Source: Parvibaculum sp.
GTDB taxonomy: Bacteria; Pseudomonadota; Alphaproteobacteria; Parvibaculales; Parvibaculaceae
Direction of reading: 5' to 3'
DNA: 33,667 nt
Assembly (NCBI RefSeq): GCF_030694575.1
Contig: NZ_JAUYUS010000004.1
Span: 1 to 33,667, forward strand
Shown here: positions 1 through 33,644 of the stretch, piece by piece
How the letters are laid out: every line of letters begins with the position of its first letter
Position numbering within the stretch: the first letter of the stretch is position 1
Made by a program: the position numbers and the translations under genes
Notes under the pieces: model-generated
Databases searched by the model: none
What the model was told of the DNA's origin: nothing
What the model saw: only the letters and a program-made list of their open reading frames with translations

Positions 1-266
1 TCGATCCCCTCCATTTCCGCGTCCAGGCGGCGGACGACCTCGAAGGCGATGCCATAGGCGGCTTCGCGGAGGATTTCGGCCTTGTCGTTGAAATGAGTGT
101 AGAAAGTGCCGTTGGCGAGGCCCGCGGCGGTGGTGATGTCGCTGATTTTCGCGGCTTCCCCGCCTTTTTCGGCGACGACCTCGACAGCGGCGTCCAGAAG
201 CGCGGAGCGGGTGCGCTCGCGTTTGCCCTGGCCTGCCGTCAAATCCTTAAAATGTCCGTGCCGCAT
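1..266 (-). CDS. TetR-family transcriptional regulator, N-terminal part (truncated by window edge)
   Basis: Reading leftward from the ATG at 266-264, 88 codons are present before the window ends, so the ligand-binding half is missing. The visible part is a TetR N-terminal helix-turn-helix: KRERTRSALLDAAVEVVAEKG (helix 1), KISDITTAAGLANGTFYTHF (helices 2-3, with the family's GTFYTHF recognition signature) and NDKAEILREAAY after it. TetR proteins are dimeric repressors released by small ligands, often hydrophobic. The gene is divergent from the monooxygenase gene, and two tandem inverted repeats lie between them, so it probably represses the monooxygenase operon and itself. The ligand cannot be inferred. 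TetR assignment is firm from the helix-turn-helix; the target is inference from layout. Confidence 0.93.
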   Translation of the reverse strand, partial: MRHGHFKDLTAGQGKRERTRSALLDAAVEVVAEKGGEAAKISDITTAAGLANGTFYTHFNDKAEILREAAYGIAFEVVRRLDAEMEGI

Positions 267-292
267 GGAGCGAGAATAGCGCAGGCCACGGG

Positions 293-322
293 TTGACAAA
301 AGTCATTTATGAGATGTATCTC
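293..322 (+). promoter_or_regulatory. Candidate promoter of the monooxygenase operon
   Basis: A perfect -35 hexamer TTGACA lies at 293-298. With an 18-nt spacer, a weak -10 (TATCTC) lies at 317-322, which would put the start of transcription near 329, inside the second operator. The poor -10 is the weak point of this call. Confidence 0.45.
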
Positions 323-349
323 AAATATGAGAGTACTCTCATATTTGAG
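310..349. promoter_or_regulatory. Tandem TetR-type operators overlapping promoter and ribosome binding site
   Basis: Two copies of GAGA-N4-TCTC sit 18 bp apart: GAGATGTATCTC at 311-322 (arms extend to TGAGAT/ATCTCA at 310-323) and GAGAGTACTCTC at 329-340. The second is the core of a perfect 30-bp palindrome, 320-349, centred between 334 and 335. Its right end overlaps the GAGG ribosome binding site (347-350) of the ATG at 357. TetR dimers bind palindromes of this size, so binding here would block the promoter. The perfect symmetry is seen directly; the binding protein is inferred from the adjacent TetR gene. Confidence 0.75.
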
Positions 350-356
350 GCGCGCC

Positions 357-2033
357 ATGTCCCGCATTCCCGTCCTGATCGTTGGTGCCGGTCCTGTTGG
401 CCAGCTTTCGGCGCTGCTGCTGGCGCGGCAGGGGATCGCGTCGCGGCTGATCGACAGACGGCCGCAGCCGAGCGAAGCGCCGAAGGCCCATGCGGTGAAC
501 CCGCGGACGCTCGAAATCTGCGAAAGCGTGGGCGTGCCGGCGGAGGGACTGCGCCGGGAGGGCGCGAGCGCCAACGATGCCGGATGGGTGCGTTTCATCT
601 GTACACTGACGGGTACGGAGTTCGGCGCGCTGCCTTACGAGCGGCAGGACGACAAGGCGCTGGCGCATACGCCCTACCCGCTCACCAATATTCCGCAGCC
701 GAAATTCGAGGCGGCGCTGGCGAAGGCGATTGACGCCGAGCCGCTCATTACCTTCACGCGCGGCGTCACCTGCGCCGATCTCGCGGAAGTACCTGACGGG
801 GTGACGGCGCAACTGGAGGCGGCAGACGGCACGCGCGATGCCCTCACCTGCGACTATCTCATCGCGGCAGACGGCGCGGGCTCGCGATTGCGCGACACGC
901 TCGGCATCGCGATGGAGGGGCCGGAGGCGCTGCAGCACAATCTGATGATCCATTTCGAGGCCGACCTCAGGGCGCTCACAGATGCGCGGCCCGGCGTTCT
1001 CTATTTCCTGTTCCAGCCGGGTACGAGCGGCGTCTTCATCGCCTATGACCGGGGCAGGACATGGGTGCTGATGCACCCGCACGATCCGGCGCGCGAACCT
1101 CGCGAAAGTTTCGACGACGCGAGATGCCGGGCACTGATCGAAGCGGCAATCGGTACGGCGGCGCCCGCGCTCCCCGCACTCCATGTCCGCCATGTGAGCC
1201 CCTGGACGATGTCGGCGCAGGTGGCGGAACGCTACCGCAAGGGCCGCGTGTTCCTGGCGGGCGATGCGGCGCACCGCTTTCCGCCGACGGGCGGGCTCGG
1301 CCTCAACACGGGCGCGGTGGACGCGCAGAACCTTGCCTGGAAACTCGCCGCCGTGCTGAAAGGCGAAGCGGGAGAGGCACTTCTCGACACATACGAGACG
1401 GAACGGCGACCCGTGGCGCTGACCAATTGCGAGCAGAGCCTGACCAACGCGTCGAAGATCTTCGAGTTGTTCGGCGCGCTTTACGGGCCCGACCCGGCAA
1501 AGCGGCAGGCGCATTACGAGGCCATCGCCGCGAACCCGGCCGCTTCCGCCGAGCTTGCCGCCACCGTGGAAGCGCAGCGGCCGCATTTCGACAGTTTCAA
1601 CCTGCAGCTCGGCTATCGCTATGCGTCGGCGGCGACCATCGGCGCGCCTGCCCTGCAGGCGGCGGCGGGCGTCGACATCAGCGATTACCGGCCTTCATGG
1701 GAGGCGGGCGCGCATGTGCCGCATCGCTGGGTGAAGACAAGGGGAGGCGCGCGCGTGTCGCTGCTGTCTCTCCTTGCCGCCGACCGCTTCGCGATACTGG
1801 CCGGGCCGGGGGGCGATGGCTGGCGCGAAGCGGCGGCGGATGCGGGGCTGACGGCGCTGCGCGGCGGACGGGATTTCGAGGACGAGACGGAAGGCTGGAC
1901 GGAACTTACCGGCCTGCCGAAGGACGGCGCGCTGCTGGTGCGCCCGGATGGACATATCGCCTGCCGTTTCGAGGGCGGGGCCAACGACGCGGCGGCGCTT
2001 CTCGGACAAACGCTGGCGGAGGTTCTGGCGTGA
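357..2033 (+). CDS. FAD-dependent monooxygenase, PheA/TfdB (phenol / 3-(3-hydroxyphenyl)propionate hydroxylase) type
   Basis: 558 aa class A flavoprotein hydroxylase. These cytosolic enzymes use NAD(P)H and O2 to hydroxylate an aromatic or cyclic substrate. Seen in order: GAGPVG dinucleotide-binding loop (residues 10-15), the DG motif in AADGAGSRLRD (about 171-180), the GD motif in FLAGDAAHRFPPTGGLGLN (about 300-317) that contacts the FAD ribityl chain, and a C-terminal thioredoxin-like domain ending in ALLVRPDGHIACRF, typical of PheA/TfdB relatives. An upstream in-frame ATG at 309 is open, but the start at 357 has GAGG six bases away and begins directly before the nucleotide-binding strand. 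It is the first gene behind the TetR operators. The substrate is unknown; the neighbours (SDR, FAH-fold protein) suggest oxidation followed by C-C bond cleavage of a ring compound. Confidence 0.9.
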   Translation: MSRIPVLIVGAGPVGQLSALLLARQGIASRLIDRRPQPSEAPKAHAVNPRTLEICESVGVPAEGLRREGASANDAGWVRFICTLTGTEFGALPYERQDDKALAHTPYPLTNIPQPKFEAALAKAIDAEPLITFTRGVTCADLAEVPDGVTAQLEAADGTRDALTCDYLIAADGAGSRLRDTLGIAMEGPEALQHNLMIHFEADLRALTDARPGVLYFLFQPGTSGVFIAYDRGRTWVLMHPHDPAREPRESFDDARCRALIEAAIGTAAPALPALHVRHVSPWTMSAQVAERYRKGRVFLAGDAAHRFPPTGGLGLNTGAVDAQNLAWKLAAVLKGEAGEALLDTYETERRPVALTNCEQSLTNASKIFELFGALYGPDPAKRQAHYEAIAANPAASAELAATVEAQRPHFDSFNLQLGYRYASAATIGAPALQAAAGVDISDYRPSWEAGAHVPHRWVKTRGGARVSLLSLLAADRFAILAGPGGDGWREAAADAGLTALRGGRDFEDETEGWTELTGLPKDGALLVRPDGHIACRFEGGANDAAALLGQTLAEVLA

Positions 2034-2054
2034 TGAAGAGCGTCGCCCTTTCTC

Positions 2055-2160
2055 CGTCATTGCGAGGAGCGGCGAAGCCGGGACGAAGCAATCCAGGAAC
2101 GGCAAGGACTGAGTGTGCCGCTCCTGGATTGCTTCGTCGCTATCGCTCCTCGCAATGACG
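2055..2160. repeat. Imperfect palindromic element of about 106 bp (MITE/REP-like)
   Basis: The ends are exact inverted copies: CGTCATTGCGAGGAGC at 2055-2070 and its complement at 2145-2160. Inner arms around GACGAAGCAATCCAGGA (2082-2098) pair with 2123-2139, so the transcript folds into one long hairpin. This sequence type is scattered through many alphaproteobacterial genomes. It lies between the monooxygenase and SDR genes and may reduce downstream expression or mark a processing site. No transposase is present. Confidence 0.85.
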
Positions 2161-2206
2161 AGGTGTGTGGTGGAGAAGCGGCGGTGAAGTTGAGAGGAAA
2201 CGGCTG

Positions 2207-2986
2207 ATGGATCTTGGGTTAAAGGGACGCAAGGCGATCGTCTGCGCTTCGTCGCGCGGGCTCGGCAAGGCCTGCGCCATGTCGCTGGCGCGCGAAGGCG
2301 CCGACGTCGTCATCAACGGGCGGAACGCGGAGGTGCTCGACCTCGCGGCGCATGAGATCGCGGCCGTGGCGAAGGGATCGGTGACGCCCATCGCCGCCGA
2401 CATCAACACGCCGGAAGGCCGGGAGCGGCTCCTCGCGGCCTGTCCGGCGGCCGACATTCTCGTGAACAACAATGACGGGCCGCCGCCCGGCGCCTTCCAG
2501 CAATGGGACGAAAGCCATTGGCAGGCGGCACTCAACGCGAACCTGCTCGCGCCCGTCTTCATGATCAAGGCGCTGATCGAGGGCATGAAGGAGCGGCGCT
2601 TCGGGCGGATCGTCAACATCACCTCGGCGATGGTGAAGGCGCCGCGCTCGGCGATGGGGCTTTCGACGACGGCGCGCTCCGGCCTCACCGCGATCAGCAA
2701 GGCGCTTTCCGTCGACGCCGCGCCCTTCAACGTGACGATCAACAACATGCTGCCCGAACGCTTCGACACGGACCGGCAGCAGCAGATGGCGAAGCTCGCC
2801 ATGCAGTTCAAGAAGATCACCTATGAGGAAGCGCGCGCGGAAATCGCCGAGTCGATTGCCGCCAAGCGCATGGGGCAACCTTTCGAATTCGGCGATGCCT
2901 GCGCGTTTCTCTGCAGCGCACAGGCGGGCTTCATTTCCGGGCAGAACCTGCAACTGGACGGGGGCTCCTACCCCGGCCTCATCTGA
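2207..2986 (+). CDS. Short-chain dehydrogenase/reductase (SDR) with non-canonical active site
   Basis: 259 aa, classical SDR size. The Rossmann nucleotide site is present as ASSRGLG (residues 14-20), followed by the NNxG-like LVNNNDG (85-91) and the catalytic-serine strand IVNITSAM with Ser140. Where SDRs have YxxxK, 13 residues after that Ser, this protein has STTAR (Ser153, Arg157), so both the catalytic Tyr and Lys are replaced. The C-terminal QLDGGSYPG is standard for the family. The start at 2207 has GAGAGG at 2192-2197; the in-frame extension to 2165 has no such site. It probably works on the alcohol or ketone made from the monooxygenase product, but dehydrogenase chemistry cannot be assumed. 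A distinct SDR subfamily with LSNGARxGL-like sequences at this place is known, so this may be a natural variant rather than decay. Confidence 0.88.
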   Translation: MDLGLKGRKAIVCASSRGLGKACAMSLAREGADVVINGRNAEVLDLAAHEIAAVAKGSVTPIAADINTPEGRERLLAACPAADILVNNNDGPPPGAFQQWDESHWQAALNANLLAPVFMIKALIEGMKERRFGRIVNITSAMVKAPRSAMGLSTTARSGLTAISKALSVDAAPFNVTINNMLPERFDTDRQQQMAKLAMQFKKITYEEARAEIAESIAAKRMGQPFEFGDACAFLCSAQAGFISGQNLQLDGGSYPGLI

Positions 2987-2996
2987 GGAGATAAAA

Positions 2997-3446
2997 ATGG
3001 AAACGCTTTACGACGAGCTTCTGGTTCCGCGTCTTCTCTTTTCGCTGGTCGCCTTCATGATCAGCGTCGGGCCGATTTTCGCCGACTTCAACAAAACGCA
3101 TGCGACGAACCCGCTATGGACGCCGCATGCGCGGTTTCATGTGGTGTGGCAGGTGCTGAGCCAGACGGGCATTTCGCTCGTCATTCTCTATCTGCTGTGG
3201 ACCCCCGCGACGGACTACGCGACGCATATATGGGTGGCGGCGATCCTCAATTACATCTGGGGCGCGAGCTTCTATACGACGCTGGCGACGATGCCGATCT
3301 ATGGCGGGGCGCTGAAGGACGTGAACGGCATCAAGCCGTTCCGCTTCAATATTTTCGGCACGATCTATCTCGTGGACACCAATCTCTTCGGCGGGACAAT
3401 CCTGATGATCGTGAATACAATCGGCGTCTGGTTGCTGGTGAACTGA
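2997..3446 (+). CDS. Small integral membrane protein, unknown family
   Basis: 149 aa with about four hydrophobic segments: LLFSLVAFMISVGPIFADF, VLSQTGISLVILYLLW, HIWVAAILNYIWGASFYTTL, and the C-terminal GGTILMIVNTIGVWLLVN. I do not recognise a family. The gene is tightly placed: the SDR stop codon is part of its ribosome binding site (GAGGAG at 2985-2990, six bases before ATG 2997), which implies coupled translation. Being sandwiched between the SDR and the exported FAH-fold protein suggests a role in uptake or membrane handling of the operon's substrate, but nothing in the sequence shows a transport function. A much longer in-frame ORF starting at 2823 overlaps the SDR and is not credible. 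Confidence 0.75.
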   Translation: METLYDELLVPRLLFSLVAFMISVGPIFADFNKTHATNPLWTPHARFHVVWQVLSQTGISLVILYLLWTPATDYATHIWVAAILNYIWGASFYTTLATMPIYGGALKDVNGIKPFRFNIFGTIYLVDTNLFGGTILMIVNTIGVWLLVN

Positions 3447-3456
3447 GGATGGAAGA

Positions 3457-4599
3457 ATGGGCTTTCTGCGCGCGGGCATTTTCGTCATGACGCTGCTCGG
3501 TTCGACGGCGGCGGGAGCGGCCGCACAGGCCGAAGGATTCGGCACGGTGGAAATCGCGCCCGTGGCGGAGGCGCTGACCTTCGCGCGCGTGCAGGAAGAC
3601 GGACATCACCGGCTGCTGCTCGTCTCCGCCTATGAAGAGGGCATGGTGAGCGGCGTCGACGTGACGGCGGCGCTGGGGGCGGACGATCCCATCGACGCCT
3701 ATGCCGCCCATGGCTACGAAGCGATTGCGGCGCTGGCGGCGGGGCGCGCCGAGCGGATGCCCGCGGGGCGGCTGACGCTGCCCGCGCGGCTGACCGCGTC
3801 GCATATCGCGGCGGGGACGAATTTTCCCGAACATGCGGAAGAGGCGACGGTGACGGACGGGCCTTTCCTCTTTCCGAAAGAGGTCGAGCCGACGGCTTTC
3901 AACGCGCCCGTGCCGGCGGGAGAGGCGCTGCTCGACTATGAGGTGGAGCTTTGCTTCGTGGCGCTGGCCCCCGTGGACCTCAACGGCGCGCTGGACGGCA
4001 CGGCGCCGGAGCGGATGGGGCTGATGCTCTGCAATGACGTGACGGACCGGGCGGCGCTGATGCGGAACGTCGATCCCAATGACGTCACTTCCGGCAAGGG
4101 CTTCACGACGGGCAAGAGCGCGCCGGGCTTTCTGCCGGTGGGGAACCTGTTCGTCATTCCGCGCGAGCTGCGCCCCTTCGCGGAGGCCGCCGAATTGCGG
4201 CTGTGGCGGAACGGCGAGCTGAAGCAGTCGGCGACGCAATCGGAAGCGATATGGGATTTCGACGAGCTGCTGCGGCAGACGAAGGCTCGCGAGGGCATGA
4301 CCTGGGAGTATCAGGGGCGGCAGGTGGGCCTGCCGGCGCCGGGGGGCACGATCCCGGCGCGGACCGCGATCCTGGCGGGGACGCCGGACGGGACGATCTT
4401 CCACGGCGTCAACAAATCGGCCATGGCGCTGGGGCTCTGGGACTTCGTGGCAGGGGGCTGGGACCGGCCCGTCACCGCCCATGTGGTGGAGCGGCATATC
4501 GCGCAGGAGAAGGCCTCAGGCGATTACCTCAAGCCCGGAGAGCGGGTGCAGATCGCGGTGCGGTATCTCGGCGAGATCGACAGCACCATCGTGGAATAG
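3457..4599 (+). CDS. Fumarylacetoacetate hydrolase (FAH) fold protein with signal peptide
   Basis: 380 aa. The C-terminal two thirds match the FAH fold used by C-C hydrolases, decarboxylases and hydratases in aromatic catabolism. Seen: GTNFPEHAEE (120-129, His126 in the catalytic position), the metal ligands in LDYEVEL (Glu162, Glu164), NDVTDRAAL with Asp194, GKGFTTGKSAPGFLPVG, and a late GTPDGT loop. The N-terminus MGFLRAGIFVMTLLGSTAAGAAAQA looks like a Sec signal peptide cleaved near AAAQA, which is odd because FAH enzymes are normally cytosolic. The start is supported by an upstream GGATGGAAG and ten bases of spacing from the previous stop. It is the last gene before a strong terminator, so likely the end of the TetR-controlled operon. 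The exact reaction is unknown. Confidence 0.85.
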   Translation: MGFLRAGIFVMTLLGSTAAGAAAQAEGFGTVEIAPVAEALTFARVQEDGHHRLLLVSAYEEGMVSGVDVTAALGADDPIDAYAAHGYEAIAALAAGRAERMPAGRLTLPARLTASHIAAGTNFPEHAEEATVTDGPFLFPKEVEPTAFNAPVPAGEALLDYEVELCFVALAPVDLNGALDGTAPERMGLMLCNDVTDRAALMRNVDPNDVTSGKGFTTGKSAPGFLPVGNLFVIPRELRPFAEAAELRLWRNGELKQSATQSEAIWDFDELLRQTKAREGMTWEYQGRQVGLPAPGGTIPARTAILAGTPDGTIFHGVNKSAMALGLWDFVAGGWDRPVTAHVVERHIAQEKASGDYLKPGERVQIAVRYLGEIDSTIVE

Positions 4600-4626: not shown

Positions 4627-4670
4627 TGACGCCTGCGGCAACAAAGAAGTTGACGCAGGCGTCATTTTTT
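4627..4670 (+). terminator. Rho-independent terminator after the FAH-fold gene
   Basis: An 11-bp perfect stem, TGACGCCTGCG (4627-4637) with CGCAGGCGTCA (4654-4664), has a 16-nt loop and is followed by six T (4665-4670). It closes the operon starting at 357. Confidence 0.88.
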
Positions 4671-4949: not shown

Positions 4950-6170
4950 ATGGCGGACGACATTCTCATCATCGGGGCGGGCCAGGCGGCGGCGCAGGCC
5001 GTGCAGAGCTTGCGCGCGGAAGGCTTCGACGGCGCGATCCGGATTTTCGGCGACGAGCCCTATGCGCCCTATCAGCGGCCGCCGCTGAGCAAGAAATTTC
5101 TCGCCGGCGAGATCGGCTTCGACCGCGTGGAGCTGAAGGCGCAGGATTTCTATGCGTCGTCGGGCGTCGAGACCCATTGGGGCACGCGCGTGACCGAAAT
5201 CGAGCGGCGCGAGAAGCGCATCCTCACCGGCGACGGGCGGAGCTTCGACTATGGCAAGCTGCTGATCGCGACGGGAAGCCGCGTGCGCGAGTTGAACGTG
5301 CCGGGCTTCGACCTCGACGGGGTTCATTATCTCCGCAATATCGACGACGTGCATTCGATCCAGGCGCATTTCAGGCCGGGCGCGAAGATGGTCGTGGTGG
5401 GCGGCGGCTATATCGGGCTCGAGGTCGCGGCCGTCGCCGTGAAGCGCGGGCTCGACGTCACCGTGCTCGAGACGGCGGACCGCGTAATGGCGCGCGTGGT
5501 GGACCCGATCGTGTCGCGCTTCTATGAGCGCGTGCACCGCGAAGAAGGCGTGAAGATCGAAACCGGCGTGACGGTGGCGAGCTTCGAGGGCGAGGACAAG
5601 GTGACGTCGGTTGCCTCCGGCGAGGGGCGGCGGTTTCCTTGCGACTTCGTGGTGGTGGGCATCGGCATCATTCCGAACACGGAGCTTGCGGCGGAAGCGG
5701 GGCTGCATGTCGAGAACGGCATCGCGGTGGACGAGCTGTGCCGGACGAGCGACCCGGACATCTGCGCGGCGGGCGACTGCACCAGCCATCCGAACGGGAT
5801 CTACGGACACAGGCTGCGGCTCGAAAGCGTGCATAACGCCATCGAGCAGGGCAAGACGGCGGCGGCGACGCTGACCGGCAAGGAGAAGCCCTACAACCAG
5901 GTGCCGTGGTTCTGGTCGGACCAGTACGACCTCAAATTGCAGATCGTGGGGCTCTCCGCCGGCTACACCGAGGCGGTGGTGCGCGGCGAGCCGGAGACGG
6001 GGCGCAGCTTCGCGGTTTTCTACCTGAAGGACGGCGTGCTGGTGGCGGTCGACGCGATCAACCGCGCGCCCGAATTCATGATGGCGAAAATGCTGACGGC
6101 GAAGCAGGCGCGGCTCGACCCGGCGCGCATCCGCGACGAAAGCATTCCCGTCAAGGAACTTGCCGGCTGA
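4950..6170 (+). CDS. NAD(P)H:ferredoxin reductase of putidaredoxin / rhodocoxin reductase type
   Basis: 406 aa, the usual length of class I P450 ferredoxin reductases. It moves electrons from NADH through FAD to a [2Fe-2S] ferredoxin in the cytosol. Seen: FAD-binding ILIIGAGQAAAQA near the N-terminus, APYQRPPLSK (conserved in this family), ATGSR, the NAD-binding VVVGGGYIGLEVAAV, and the second FAD motif ICAAGDC. The start at 4950 follows GGGGAGG; the frame is open far upstream to 4203 but that part overlaps the FAH-fold gene. It is followed after 63 bases by its probable partner ferredoxin. The usual third component, a P450, is not in the window. A role with a Rieske or other oxygenase is less likely given the ferredoxin type. 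Confidence 0.93.
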   Translation: MADDILIIGAGQAAAQAVQSLRAEGFDGAIRIFGDEPYAPYQRPPLSKKFLAGEIGFDRVELKAQDFYASSGVETHWGTRVTEIERREKRILTGDGRSFDYGKLLIATGSRVRELNVPGFDLDGVHYLRNIDDVHSIQAHFRPGAKMVVVGGGYIGLEVAAVAVKRGLDVTVLETADRVMARVVDPIVSRFYERVHREEGVKIETGVTVASFEGEDKVTSVASGEGRRFPCDFVVVGIGIIPNTELAAEAGLHVENGIAVDELCRTSDPDICAAGDCTSHPNGIYGHRLRLESVHNAIEQGKTAAATLTGKEKPYNQVPWFWSDQYDLKLQIVGLSAGYTEAVVRGEPETGRSFAVFYLKDGVLVAVDAINRAPEFMMAKMLTAKQARLDPARIRDESIPVKELAG

Positions 6171-6233: not shown

Positions 6234-6554
6234 ATGGCGAAAATCACCTATATCGAGCATGACGGCACGGAACACACGATCGAGGTCGCGAACGGCATCA
6301 CGCTGATGGAAGCGGCGGTGAAGGCGAGCATCCCCGGCATCGACGGCGACTGCGGCGGCGCCTGCGCGTGCGCCACCTGCATGGTCTATGTGCCGGAAGA
6401 GTGGAAGGCGAAGCTCCCGGAAATCGAGACGATGGAAGAGACGATGCTCGACTTCTGCGAACACACGGAAGCGAACTCGCGGCTTTCCTGCCAGCTCGTG
6501 GCGAGCGACAAGCTGGACGGGATGCGCGTGCAGATGCCGGAGAGCCAGCACTAG
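6234..6554 (+). CDS. [2Fe-2S] ferredoxin of putidaredoxin / rhodocoxin (adrenodoxin-like) type
   Basis: 106 aa, the standard size. Cluster ligands follow the Cx5Cx2C...C pattern of putidaredoxin: the stretch [11 protein letters not shown] carries three of them, and SRLSCQL near residue 87 carries the fourth. The stretch holds one extra cysteine (GGAC) between the first and second ligands, where putidaredoxin has serine or alanine-type residues. It should accept electrons from the reductase just upstream and pass them to a cytochrome P450. The ribosome binding site GGAGG is at 6216-6220, rather far (13 nt) from the ATG. A terminator follows directly. Confidence 0.95.
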
Positions 6555-7070: not shown

Positions 7071-9335
7071 CTAATCCGCGGCTTGGGCGAGTTTGCCGGG
7101 GGCGGGGGTGAGGTCGTGGTTTTTCAGGGGGAGCTGGCGTATGCGTTTTCCCGTCGCGGCGTAGACGCCGTTGGAGACGGCGGCGGAGACGACGGGGGTT
7201 GCCGGTTCGCCGAGGCCGCCGATGGGGGCGCCGCTTTCGACGAAGTGGACGTCGATGACGGGCGTCTCCGAGAGATGCAGCATTTCGTAGTCGGTGAAGT
7301 TCGTCTGCGCGACGGCGCCGCCTTCGATCGCGATCTCGCCGTAGAGCGCGGCGGTGAGGCCGTAGATGATGCCACTTTCGACCTGCTGGGCGGCGGTGTC
7401 CGGGTGGATCACCTCGCCGCAATCGACGGCGGCCGTGACGCGGTGGACGCGGACGGCGCCCTCCTCCACCGAGATTTCAGCGACTTCCGCGACGATGGAG
7501 CCGAAGCTCTGCTGGACCGCGATGCCATGGAAGCGGCCTTCGGCGAGGGGTTTGCCCCAGCCGGCTTTTTTCGCGGCGAGATCGAGCACGGCCTGGTGGC
7601 GCGGCTGGCCTTCGAGGAGCGCGCGGCGATATTCATAAGGGTCGGCGCCGGCGCGGTGGGCGAGCTCGTCGATGAAGCTTTCGTTGAAGAAAGTGTGCTG
7701 CGTATGCGCGACGGAACGCCAGGGGCCGCGCGGCACGTGGTTTTCGACTTCGACGAAGCGGATCGACTGGTTGGGGATCGCGTAAGGGATGTGCGGGGCT
7801 TCGCCGGGCTCGTCCTTGTGGACATAGATGTTTTCCCAGGCGGTGGGCAGACCCTTTTCGTCGAGCGCGACGCGAAGGCGGGAGCTTGAGGCGATGCGGT
7901 AGGCATCGTGCTGGATGTCGTCCTCGCGGCTGTAGATGAATTTCACCGGGGCATCGACTTCCTTCGCAACGATGGTGGCGAAGTCGATCTCGCTCGGGAA
8001 ATTGAAGAAGCCTTCGCGGATCGGGATGCGGCGGCCGAAACCGCCGCCGAGCAGCATCGGATGGACTTTCACGTTTTCGAAGCCGATGCCGGAAATATCC
8101 GCGACGCGAGCGCGGGTGCCGAGCGGGTCCTGCACGCCGACCCAGACATCGGCCTTGCCGTCGCGGATCCAGACGGTGCAGTTCATCGGTTCCATGCAGG
8201 CATGTGCGAGGTAAGGCACGCGGTAAGAGGCTTCGACGATGTCGGCGCCCTGGGCGGCGAAGACGGAGGCGGCGTCGCCGATCACCTTGTCGTCCTCGCT
8301 CTTGCCCGTGGCGATGGCGGCGTCGTGGCCGGCGAAGATGGTTTCGGAGGAGACGGCCTCGCCGCCCTTCGTGTCGAAGGTGACTTCGAGCGCGGCGGCG
8401 GCTTCCTTCGCGCGCCAGTAATTGTCGGCGATGACGGCGACACCGCCGGGAAATTCGACGACCTTCTTCACGCCGCGGCGGGAGAGGATTTCGCTCGCAT
8501 CATAAGAGACGACGGTGGAGCCGAAGACGGGGGCGAGTTTCGGCGCGGCGTAGAGCATGCCGGGGGCCTCGGCGTCGATGCCGTATTTCGCGGTGCCGTT
8601 GACCTTGCCCGGAATGTCGAAGCGGGGGCGCGCGGTGCCGACGATGGTGTAGTCCTTTTTCGACTTCAGGACCGGCGCGGCGGAGGGCGCATAGCCGGCG
8701 GCGTCGGCGGCGAGTTCGCCATAGGTGGCGGACTGGCCGTTGGGGCCCGTGACGGTGCTGAGGGCGGCCACGCAATCGGATGGCGAGACGCCCCAGCGGG
8801 CGGCGGCGGCCTTGACCAGCATGTCTTTCGCGGCGGCGCCCGTGACGCGCATGCCGTGATGTCCGGTGTAGCGGACCGCCATGGAGCCGCCGGTGATCTG
8901 CAGGTTCATGAACTGCGCGATCTTGGTCCATGCGGCGGCGTTGAGGCCCTTCAGCATGGGCGGCACGTCTTCGCCGGCGACGAAGCGGTTGCCGAGCGCC
9001 TCATTGGCGAAGGCTTTTTCGGCGGGGGCCTGTTCGGCGCGGACGAGCGACCAGTCGGCTTCCAGTTCCTCCGCCGCCATCATGGCGAGCGCGGTGATGG
9101 TGCCCTGCCCCATGTCGGCATGGGGAACATAGATGGTGACGATGTTGTCCGGCGAAATTTTCAACCAGGTGGTGACGAAGCGTTCGCCGCCTTGCGCGGC
9201 CGCCCCTTCGGCAAGCTCGCGGCGCGAGGGGCCGGAGACGGCATAGCCGAGAAGAAGGCCGCCGCCGACGGCGACGCCGACGCTGCCGCCGATGAGGAAC
9301 TGGCGGCGTGAGGGCTTCTTGAATTGCATGGCCAT
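7071..9335 (-). CDS. Molybdopterin-binding large subunit of a xanthine-dehydrogenase-family hydroxylase (IorB-like)
   Basis: 754 aa, matching isoquinoline 1-oxidoreductase beta subunits and the related periplasmic aldehyde dehydrogenases. It carries the molybdenum cofactor (usually the cytosine dinucleotide form) and hydroxylates an N-heterocycle or oxidises an aldehyde. Seen: an N-terminal twin-arginine signal SRRQFLIGG (Arg10-Arg11) followed by a hydrophobic stretch, the cofactor loop GGGFGRRIP, RGPWRSVAHTQ, and GGLGEPATP near the C-terminus with the expected catalytic glutamate. Folding with cofactor in the cytosol and Tat export fit. The start at 9335 is set by the Tat motif and an upstream GGGAGAG; an in-frame extension to 9440 runs into the small subunit gene. 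It lies 13 bases after the Fe-S subunit. No FAD subunit is nearby, as usual for IorAB-type enzymes that use a cytochrome. Substrate unknown. Confidence 0.92.
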   Translation of the reverse strand: MAMQFKKPSRRQFLIGGSVGVAVGGGLLLGYAVSGPSRRELAEGAAAQGGERFVTTWLKISPDNIVTIYVPHADMGQGTITALAMMAAEELEADWSLVRAEQAPAEKAFANEALGNRFVAGEDVPPMLKGLNAAAWTKIAQFMNLQITGGSMAVRYTGHHGMRVTGAAAKDMLVKAAAARWGVSPSDCVAALSTVTGPNGQSATYGELAADAAGYAPSAAPVLKSKKDYTIVGTARPRFDIPGKVNGTAKYGIDAEAPGMLYAAPKLAPVFGSTVVSYDASEILSRRGVKKVVEFPGGVAVIADNYWRAKEAAAALEVTFDTKGGEAVSSETIFAGHDAAIATGKSEDDKVIGDAASVFAAQGADIVEASYRVPYLAHACMEPMNCTVWIRDGKADVWVGVQDPLGTRARVADISGIGFENVKVHPMLLGGGFGRRIPIREGFFNFPSEIDFATIVAKEVDAPVKFIYSREDDIQHDAYRIASSSRLRVALDEKGLPTAWENIYVHKDEPGEAPHIPYAIPNQSIRFVEVENHVPRGPWRSVAHTQHTFFNESFIDELAHRAGADPYEYRRALLEGQPRHQAVLDLAAKKAGWGKPLAEGRFHGIAVQQSFGSIVAEVAEISVEEGAVRVHRVTAAVDCGEVIHPDTAAQQVESGIIYGLTAALYGEIAIEGGAVAQTNFTDYEMLHLSETPVIDVHFVESGAPIGGLGEPATPVVSAAVSNGVYAATGKRIRQLPLKNHDLTPAPGKLAQAAD

Positions 9336-9348
9336 GATGCTCTCTCCC

Positions 9349-9816
9349 TCAGGCTGCGGTGACGGAACGGATGGCGGCGCGGACGCGCGGATAGGTGCCG
9401 CAGCGGCAGACATTGGTGATCGCCGCATCGATGTCTTCATCCGTGGGCCGAGGATTTTCCGCGAGGAGCGCGGAGACGGCCATCAACATGCCGGACTGGC
9501 AATAGCCGCATTGGGGAACCTGCGCGTCGATCCAGGCCTGCTGGACGGGAGCGAGCATGCCCTCCGCCGCGCCGGACGTGGCGGCAAGGCCCTCGATGGT
9601 GGTGATCTCGGCGCCGTCCACGGCCTCTACGGGCGTGACGCAGGTGCGGGTCGCGACGCCGTCGACATGGACCGTGCAGGCCCCGCAGGCGGCGACGCCG
9701 CAGCCGAATTTCGTGCCGGTGAGGCCAAGCTCGTCGCGCAGCGCCCAGAGGAGCGGCATTTCGGGCTCGATGTCGAGCGAATGCGTCGTGCCGTTGACTT
9801 TGAGGGTAATGGCCAT
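9349..9816 (-). CDS. [2Fe-2S] small subunit of the molybdenum hydroxylase (IorA-like)
   Basis: 155 aa, typical. It holds two [2Fe-2S] clusters that take electrons from the molybdenum site. The plant-type N-terminal cluster is in [13 protein letters not shown] with a later cysteine (TRTC); the C-terminal helical cluster is in CGYCQSGM and [10 protein letters not shown]. It lacks a signal peptide and would be exported bound to the Tat-tagged large subunit. First gene of the two-gene operon; the upstream region carries a candidate operator at 9868-9891. Upstream AGGGAGG supports the ATG at 9816. Confidence 0.94.

Positions 9817-33567: not shown

Positions 33568-33644
<77 letters not shown>

Follow-up and report, generated by a model that had tools for sequence, protein, structure and literature searches.

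A conserved TetR-linked gene unit of Parvibaculum encoding a class A monooxygenase, a Tyr-less SDR, a DUF6640 membrane protein, and an FAH-fold protein

A conserved unit of four genes, encoding a class A FAD monooxygenase (FMO), an SDR, a DUF6640 membrane protein, and an FAH-family protein, was found in a contig of Parvibaculum sp. (the window, 33,667 nucleotides). The gene order is real and not a product of chance: FMO-SDR-membrane protein-FAH recurs with tight spacing in 16 of the 19 close orthologous loci from 61 genomes searched, and the remaining three comprise two contig-edge cases and one locus that lacks the membrane protein. In our reading, held at a probability of about 0.5, the unit is a catabolic operon that TetR represses and that serves the breakdown of a hydrophobic phenolic (ring) compound. 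ORF calling and profile searches confirmed the four neighboring genes that a first-pass annotation had listed and a TetR gene on the opposite strand, and the recurrence of the order, for which a search had been proposed, excludes the case that the genes are neighbors in this strain only. The earlier view of one operon under TetR control, probably catabolic, is supported. Several pairs of loci (e.g., L033 and L005, L038 and L010) represent one genome under two names and are not counted twice in the totals of 19, 18, 27, and 20 loci used here. Counting against our reading, 12 of the 27 Parvibaculum genomes searched, several of them incomplete, have no close orthologue of the FAH gene. No matching cluster appeared among the matches listed in the literature on carbofuran or extradiol/FAH degradation, on sulfatases with extradiol enzymes and FMOs, or on Parvibaculum, which agrees with the initial statement that no described pathway has this gene set; the unit seems to be undescribed.

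The divergent TetR gene, a tandem operator, and a hairpin with a T-run after the FAH gene delimit the four genes. The N-terminal part of the TetR-family repressor gene (TetR_N, PF00440, 48 bits) occupies positions 3 to 266 of the minus strand as an open ORF cut by the contig start, and a whole copy of 209 amino acids is present on the homologous contig C11 (L179, 635 to 1264). The likely end of the unit is a terminator-like hairpin on the plus strand (4627 to 4670), for which the palindrome scan gave 16-nt arms (4627 to 4642 and 4649 to 4664) followed by TTTTTT.

Comparison of promoter sequences placed operator 1, TGAGATGTATCTCA, at 310 to 323 and operator 2, TGAGAGTACTCTCA, at 328 to 341, the latter within a perfect 30-bp palindrome (320 to 349). 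Together they form a predicted tandem operator at the FMO promoter, TGAGA-N4-TCTCA twice at a distance of 18 bp. Among the FMO promoters whose 5' ends are intact (18 from 17 genomes, two of them, on C87 and C11, from the genome under study), 15 carry the tandem operator and the other three a single site. The -35-like TTGACA of the FMO promoter (293 to 298, plus strand) was not picked up by a generic promoter scan; its TTGAC is conserved in all 15 tandem-operator promoters, where it begins 17 to 18 bp upstream of the first nucleotide of operator 1. Throughout nine Parvibaculum genomes the tandem pattern occurs nowhere except at TetR-FMO promoters, and a control with the pattern read backward returned 0 matches in all 12 genomes. 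Counting against our reading, the genome scan found no tandem site in G158, and neither G004 nor G381 gave an operator match. A TGGGATATATCCCA palindrome was spotted by eye in the G004 promoter, and single operator sites with one mismatch stray elsewhere in several genomes, e.g., in G013, G028, G032, G035, and G261. The TetR_N domain, the divergent promoter, and the palindromic operators are those of TetR-family regulation, and binding of TetR at the tandem operator is predicted from them. The predicted operator can serve as a regulon probe.

The FMO gene (357 to 2033, plus strand) encodes a 558-amino-acid protein of the TfdB/2-hydroxybiphenyl 3-monooxygenase group (PF01494, 290 bits; PF21274, 46.5 bits). 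Its FAD_binding_3 domain and the sequences GAGPVG, ADGAGS, and GDAAH at positions 10, 171, and 302, which we take to be the three FAD/NADPH motifs, are those of class A FAD monooxygenases. A structure-database search returned 2,4-dichlorophenol and 2-hydroxybiphenyl monooxygenases among its better solved relatives; polyketide hydroxylase and MbnF models also score on it, far below their cut-offs.

The SDR (2207 to 2986, plus strand; 259 amino acids; PF13561/PF00106) is of a Tyr-less type, with Ser140-Ser153-Arg157 in the alignment. As had been noted at first, catalytic residues of the classical Asn-Ser-Tyr-Lys tetrad are lacking: Ser153 replaces Tyr and Arg157 replaces Lys in all 56 distinct relatives (51 to 100% identity), while all 56 keep Ser140 and 54 of them keep Asn112. 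Since Ser and Arg are invariant in these relatives and tetrad residues are also lost in PDB homologues, we regard the replacement as a feature of the family, and a decayed pseudo-enzyme was rejected. By alignment, the protein is a member of a Tyr-less branch homologous to BacG-type reductases; BacG/YwfH (3u49; E value, 2.6e-35), its closest PDB homologue with a function known to us, likewise lacks both Tyr and Lys. The likeness is distant, with Asn in BacG and Arg here at the Lys position, and BacG belongs to a biosynthetic cluster. BacG/YwfH is described, in the passages concerned, as a reductase in bacilysin synthesis (PMC9147277). Of the hydroxylate-oxidize-cleave logic first proposed for the operon, the "oxidize" step is doubtful because this studied relative is a reductase, and a ring-opening enzyme is not encoded among the four genes. 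The genomic contexts of some SDR relatives also count against our reading, as no FMO or VOC gene lies near those of G676 and G722 (L111 and L112; 60 to 64% identity) or Comamonas (L118; 55%).

The third gene (2997 to 3446, plus strand) encodes a DUF6640 protein of 149 amino acids (PF20345, 37.3 bits against a cut-off of 27). An AlphaFold2 model with helices at residues 9 to 32, 43 to 68, 74 to 97, and 128 to 148 agrees with the four-helix membrane protein of the first-pass annotation, and the stretch DFNKTHATNP-x-W-x-PHARFHVVWQ is invariant in 11 orthologues. Foldseek gave no match to the model with an E value below 0.7, a second fold comparison returned common four-helix bundles only (best Z, 9.9, in the usual range for helical bundles), and no paper on DUF6640 was found in the literature searched.

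The last gene (3457 to 4599, plus strand) encodes an FAH-fold hydrolase of 380 amino acids (PF01557, 62.5 bits against a cut-off of 23.9). Its model (pLDDT, 80.9) has the fold of the FAH superfamily and matches acylpyruvate-type hydrolases, with YisK (8sut; E value, 1.7e-15) as the best Foldseek match and fumarylpyruvate hydrolase (6j57) at 1.1e-14. The active-site residues H126, E129, E162, E164, D194, and K220, presumably the catalytic His/Glu, the metal-binding Glu-Glu-Asp, and the Lys, are all present; in 14 aligned orthologues all are invariant except E129, which is nearly so. As a member of this superfamily, the protein would be expected to act as a C-C hydrolase or decarboxylase. The signal peptide reported earlier is plausible in this protein (residues 1 to 25, AQA|EG; 3457 to 3531, plus strand), as judged by hydropathy with the cleavage site placed by eye, and proved common, not universal, among relatives: of 27 FAH loci, 24 have an export signal or anchor as judged by hydropathy, a count that leaves out L015 and L045 (5' ends cut off) and L100 (same gene as L017). 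The signal-free orthologues are those of L014, L016, and L021. A predicted exported FAH protein would be in a different compartment from a cytoplasmic FMO and SDR, which counts against our reading. Two plasmid records with FAH matches (L120 and L121; 32 to 38%) have none of the other three genes beside them in the annotation.

An extradiol dioxygenase in the same run of genes, as in hbp-like loci, is absent here, which counts against our reading. Related loci contain an extradiol-type VOC gene: L105, L102, and L049 have VOC-FMO-SDR runs without DUF6640, and the genes of L101, which share a single strand, read FMO2-FAH-GST-CMD-VOC-FMO-SDR-DUF6640-FAH. Because L101 carries both, the idea that DUF6640 stands in for the VOC enzyme was rejected. 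Of the seven plasmid regions around SDR relatives that were viewed, out of 46 matching records, four contain two or more of VOC, FMO, and FAH. Models of HpaD, BphC, and catechol 2,3-dioxygenase match the VOC protein of L105, all with scores below their cut-offs. The link between VOC and the operon is drawn from the gene order of other genomes, because the Parvibaculum VOC homologue is in a separate locus with its own TetR gene and that locus has no copy of the FMO operator in G000.

Two species of one genus (G156 and G259) have the same operator ahead of CxPxR sulfatase genes, whose products look exported. A sulfatase under a common operator suggests a phenolic that is able to arrive as its sulfate ester and, for one genus or more, a connection between phenol breakdown and the removal of sulfate esters. 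The sulfatase genes that are merely nearby (L105, L049, L095, and L100) are weak evidence, because family matches number 2 to 11 per genome. The first-pass annotation had suggested a hydrophobic cyclic substrate; the operator-sharing sulfatase favors a phenolic, and nothing singles out terpenes or steroids.

In the phenolic operon that we favor, a ligand would free TetR from the two operators, which overlap -10/+1, and one four-gene transcript would be made. FMO would hydroxylate the phenol in the cytoplasm with FAD and NAD(P)H, and the ring might then be opened by the VOC dioxygenase of extradiol type, whose gene in Parvibaculum lies at another locus. Using NAD(P)H, the BacG-like, Tyr-less SDR may reduce the intermediate at a C=O or a conjugated C=C, and the FAH-fold hydrolase would cut a C-C bond of the beta-dicarbonyl product. 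In most species this hydrolase is predicted to be exported, or else to stay anchored to the inner membrane on its outer face, and DUF6640 could be a membrane partner, handing the hydrophobic intermediate on or keeping it close to the enzymes. For one related genus, removal of sulfate from the phenol by the operator-sharing sulfatase would come first.

The signals or anchors, together with the conserved FAH active site and the exported-looking sulfatases, would also suit a tentative periplasm-first order of events. The exported FAH protein, with the sulfatase where present, would first trim an acylated or beta-diketone side chain (and sulfate), DUF6640 would help the phenol to cross, and FMO and SDR would act inside with no need of a VOC enzyme, in keeping with an operon that has no VOC gene. 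Against this stand the three signal-free FAH proteins, one of which (L021) is at the same place as the VOC-bearing L105, and the FMO-SDR pairs that directly follow VOC, one in a locus with DUF6640 and three in loci that lack it. Comparably speculative is a regulon for sulfated phenolics, in which exported sulfatase and exported or anchored FAH would act outside the cytoplasm, DUF6640 would link them to FMO and SDR, and SDR would be a C=C reductase preparing the ring for hydrolysis. We know of no FAH enzyme previously shown to work in the periplasm and no earlier role for DUF6640, so that such a regulon, if real, would provide the first of each; no paper on a periplasmic or exported FAH enzyme with a sulfatase or phenol was found in the literature searched.

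A local repressor beside an oxygenase is typical of detoxification, and FMO and the Tyr-less SDR could instead modify a small aromatic metabolite, in the way of BacG and polyketide hydroxylases, or render a toxic phenol harmless, with FAH as a scavenger. The polyketide hydroxylase and MbnF scores and the biosynthetic role given for BacG in the source cited above fit this alternative; we consider it unlikely, as synthase, carrier, and exporter genes are absent from the operon and the company of the related loci (VOC, FAH, GST, CMD, and sulfatase) is catabolic in character. A functional link to the ferredoxin reductase and ferredoxin genes 350 bp downstream on the same strand, e.g., to serve a P450, is very improbable even though a reductase gene also lies at the edge of L008 and, in three other loci, 281 to 1398 bp downstream, because the terminator-like hairpin intervenes, the neighbors are not conserved (no reductase or ferredoxin match in the available flanks of L035, L037, L038, L039, L042, and L043), and class A FMOs take electrons directly from NAD(P)H; both genes were rejected as members of the unit.

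The phenolic operon resembles the hbp and tfdB phenol hydroxylase pathways in that FMO is of the same structural group (4cy6 and 6u0p) and directly follows an extradiol-type VOC gene in related loci. In contrast to the alpha/beta-type hydrolase of the hbp pathway, the hydrolase here is FAH-fold and usually exported; SDR and DUF6640 are additional, and the dioxygenase is not inside the operon. The kpi locus for 4-hydroxypyridine in Arthrobacter is described, in the passages concerned, as leading from an FMO through a ring-opening dioxygenase to a putative FAH-family hydrolase, KpiD; its dioxygenase is an amidohydrolase-type protein, the words "short-chain" and "dehydrogenase" have 0 occurrences in the main text, and those passages contain no membrane protein (PMC7356986). 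The corresponding passages on the ipp cluster for 2-isopropylphenol in Rhodococcus D-6 describe phenol hydroxylation followed by extradiol-type ring cleavage, with a two-component group D monooxygenase that yields a hydroquinone, and "short-chain" occurs 0 times in the main text (PMC12442392).

Through these comparisons, four genes with loose annotation become a conserved, well-delimited putative transcription unit, and our reading would give DUF6640, a family without known function, and a branch of FAH proteins with export signals a place in aromatic catabolism. Parvibaculum is known for surfactant and hydrocarbon degradation, and the substrate, if found, would add a catabolic route to the genus.

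A REP-like nested palindrome, recognized by its arms, lies between FMO and SDR (2055 to 2160). Among the loci measured it is present in this genome only, where the FMO-SDR gap is 173 bp; in none of the other 19 loci with a measured gap does it exceed 19 bp. An FMO/SDR terminator within the insert was rejected, as the scan lists no terminator-like site there. A 15-mer of the insert has 34 matches in its own genome, two of them at this spot.

The four genes on the plus strand at the start of the window very probably form a conserved, repressor-controlled operon, most likely for a hydrophobic phenolic compound that would reach some relatives as a sulfate ester. They encode a class A FAD monooxygenase (FMO; 357-2033), a short-chain dehydrogenase/reductase of a Tyr-less type (SDR; 2207-2986), a 149-amino-acid membrane protein (DUF6640, PF20345; 2997-3446), and a 380-amino-acid FAH-family protein (FAH; 3457-4599). 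The divergent TetR gene upstream, on the minus strand, is truncated by the window start. A hairpin with a T-run (4627-4670) lies 3' of FAH, and a ferredoxin reductase gene (4950-6170), starting 350 bp past FAH, is followed by a 2Fe-2S ferredoxin gene (6234-6554). A literature search, mostly outside subscription journals, found no published description of this operon.

The FAH protein, used as query against 61 genomes, had matches at an E value of 0.001 in 39 genomes and close orthologues (E value below 1e-100, 50 to 100% identity) in 19. The first-pass annotation had grouped the genes from the window sequence alone, and the order FMO-SDR-DUF6640-FAH does recur, on a single strand, in 16 of the 19 close FAH orthologue loci. 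The L017 locus is cut off by the start of its contig, and another contig of that genome ends with FMO-SDR-DUF6640 (L099); L021 is missing DUF6640. A contig-edge frame (L015, 1501-2472, minus strand; L041, 15-986, plus strand) has an SDR fragment fused straight into FAH, a deletion or misassembly in that genome. Neighboring operon genes overlap in some loci and are up to about 60 bp apart in others; the strongly negative gap values are artifacts of extrapolated starts. The FMO-SDR gap is 173 bp in the window, versus at most 19 bp in 19 other loci measured, and contains a REP-like nested palindrome (2055-2160), whose 15-mer GTCATTGCGAGGAGC has 34 exact matches in the window's own genome (G000) and 2 to 12 in four other Parvibaculum genomes. 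DUF6640 is present in 11 of 385 sampled alphaproteobacterial genomes, all of which also have SDR at 67% identity or more; the two genes adjoin in 10, and in G261 they sit at two contig ends. The four genes are thus very probably one unit, accessory in the genus, since 15 of 27 Parvibaculum genomes, G000 counted, have the FAH orthologue.

Lone extra DUF6640 paralogues occur in G028, G032, and G035; such paralogues (L149, 7068-7484; L150, 6472-6870; L151, 6582-6980; L152, 6343-6741) share an H/N/W/P core and stand outside any FMO-SDR operon. FAH orthologues with a signal or anchor are also found in L046, L047, and L048, and a further orthologue, cut at the 5' end, in L045; no FMO, SDR, or DUF6640 match was found around FAH in these four loci, with flanks short or one-sided in L045, L046, and L048.

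The TetR-FMO intergenic region contains TGAGA-N4-TCTCA twice at a spacing of 18 bp, the second copy within a perfect 30-bp palindrome (320-349), and TTGACA starts 17 bp before the first copy. Among 20 loci, L040 and L044 are without the FMO 5' end, leaving 18 scored loci from 17 genomes. In 15 of these 18 promoters the two sites are present, neither with more than one mismatch, 17 to 18 bp from TTGAC, start to start; the other three (L095, L096, and L103) have a single site. L105, inspected apart from this test, has a TGGGA-type palindrome in place of the operator. Of 12 genomes, 11 have the tandem pattern (none in G158; none in a backward-read control), and it marks the TetR-FMO promoter in 10 of the 11; in G008, promoter and remainder of the operon lie on separate contigs. 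G156 has one additional tandem site, and the sole pattern site of G259 is not its FMO promoter, which escaped the pattern because it begins TTGAG; both operator sites are nevertheless present there. The pattern occurs twice in G000 because window positions 1-900, at the end of contig C87, have a 92.6% identical version at the end of contig C11 (L179, 1-900), either because strains are mixed in the assembly or because a segment was duplicated and then diverged.

FMO belongs to the class A aromatic hydroxylases; among solved structures its top match is 8fhj, an unnamed monooxygenase, and the next are 2,4-dichlorophenol and 2-hydroxybiphenyl monooxygenases. The lack of catalytic residues in SDR, noted at first pass, was confirmed: Ser153 and Arg157 take the place of the classical Tyr and Lys in all 56 distinct relatives (51 to 100% identity), Ser140 is invariant, and Asn112 is retained in 54. 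Ser and Arg also occupy these positions in the PDB homologues 5va8, 5vps, and 5idx. BacG (3u49), which transfers hydride to a conjugated C=C, matches SDR with an E value of 2.6e-35; it too is without Tyr and Lys, but its residue at the Lys position is Asn, where SDR has Arg. A published report describes BacG as a reductase in bacilysin synthesis (PMC9147277).

Across 14 aligned orthologues, the catalytic residues of FAH show no or almost no variation, and the structural matches of its model are acylpyruvate-type hydrolases, among them YisK and fumarylpyruvate hydrolase. The export signal initially assigned to FAH holds for most loci: hydropathy readings gave an N-terminal hydrophobic segment in 24 of 27 loci with a complete N terminus. 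L014, L016, and L021 are without it, and the hydropathy output gave no upstream in-frame start yielding one. FAH is thus predicted to be exported, whereas FMO and SDR are predicted to be cytoplasmic, which poses a compartment problem. The DUF6640 model, built from 11 sequences, has four helices (pLDDT, 77), and its structure comparison gave no informative match.

The logic of hydroxylation, oxidation, and cleavage first ascribed to the operon survives in part. Judging from family and gene company, FMO would hydroxylate the substrate, SDR would carry out a reduction, and FAH would hydrolyze a C-C bond; the window operon lacks a ring-cleaving enzyme, and ring opening would fall to an extradiol-type dioxygenase-like protein (VOC) encoded elsewhere. 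VOC lies directly 5' of FMO-SDR in L105 (G004; there the first gene), L102 (G388), and L049 (Hyphomonas johnsonii), and these VOC proteins share 63 to 74% identity; that of L105 scores against HpaD, BphC, and catechol 2,3-dioxygenase models, each under the cutoff. In L101 (G381), a single strand carries FMO2, FAH, GST, CMD, VOC, FMO, SDR, DUF6640, and FAH. A VOC match at an E value of 1e-20 was found in 28 of 29 genomes tested. The Parvibaculum homologue, 46 to 49% identical to that of L105, is at a separate locus with its own TetR gene; in G000 (C122:28025-28945) it adjoins a FAH gene without an export signal, and none of the operators were found there. The functional link between VOC and the operon therefore depends on gene order in other genomes. 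This second catabolic locus (L142, 10029-11850; G000:C122:28025-29850) reads TetR-VOC-FAH, and in its counterparts L143 and L144 FMO2 comes next. A 787-amino-acid protein nearby in L142 and L144 looks, by eye, like the MMPL transporter that lies 3' of the operon in L043.

SDR relatives occur in 46 plasmid records, of which 7 (51 to 62% identity) were inspected; four of the seven regions combine two or more of VOC, FMO, and FAH: Caballeronia L113 (VOC, amidohydrolase, FAH), Bradyrhizobium L114 (FMO, VOC), Rhodococcus BG43 L115 (VOC, FAH, FMO), and Thioclava L116 (HpaD, FMO, amidohydrolase, FAH). Of the three proteins, L117 has FAH alone and L119 VOC alone, both regions being rich in acyl-CoA genes, and L118 has none. 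In two genomes with SDRs of 60 to 64% identity, FAH genes but neither FMO nor VOC occur at L111, and the queries used found none of the three in L112. Given these mixed plasmid and genome neighborhoods, this SDR branch is often in ring-cleavage clusters, yet belongs to no single pathway.

The non-FMO operator sites of G156 and G259 directly precede sulfatase genes with a CxPxR motif, one product lipoprotein-like and the other Tat-substrate-like by eye. Chance placement is unlikely, as these genomes have just 8 and 9 sulfatase-family matches; both cases come from one genus. Sulfatase genes also lie less than 10 kb from FMO-SDR or FAH in L105, L049, L095, and L100, a proximity that is weak alone because each genome has 2 to 11 sulfatase matches. 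Directly 3' of the operator-linked sulfatase is a conserved, secreted-looking protein (L177, 4976-5779; L178, 4694-5428), the L177 copy having no Pfam match.

Elsewhere in the window, a tRNA-Arg (ccg) gene lies at 33568-33644, at the right contig end. A large protein with a twin-arginine-like start (7071-9440, minus strand) resembles, by eye, a molybdenum aldehyde/isoquinoline oxidoreductase subunit and has a small 2Fe-2S-like protein beside it in L108.
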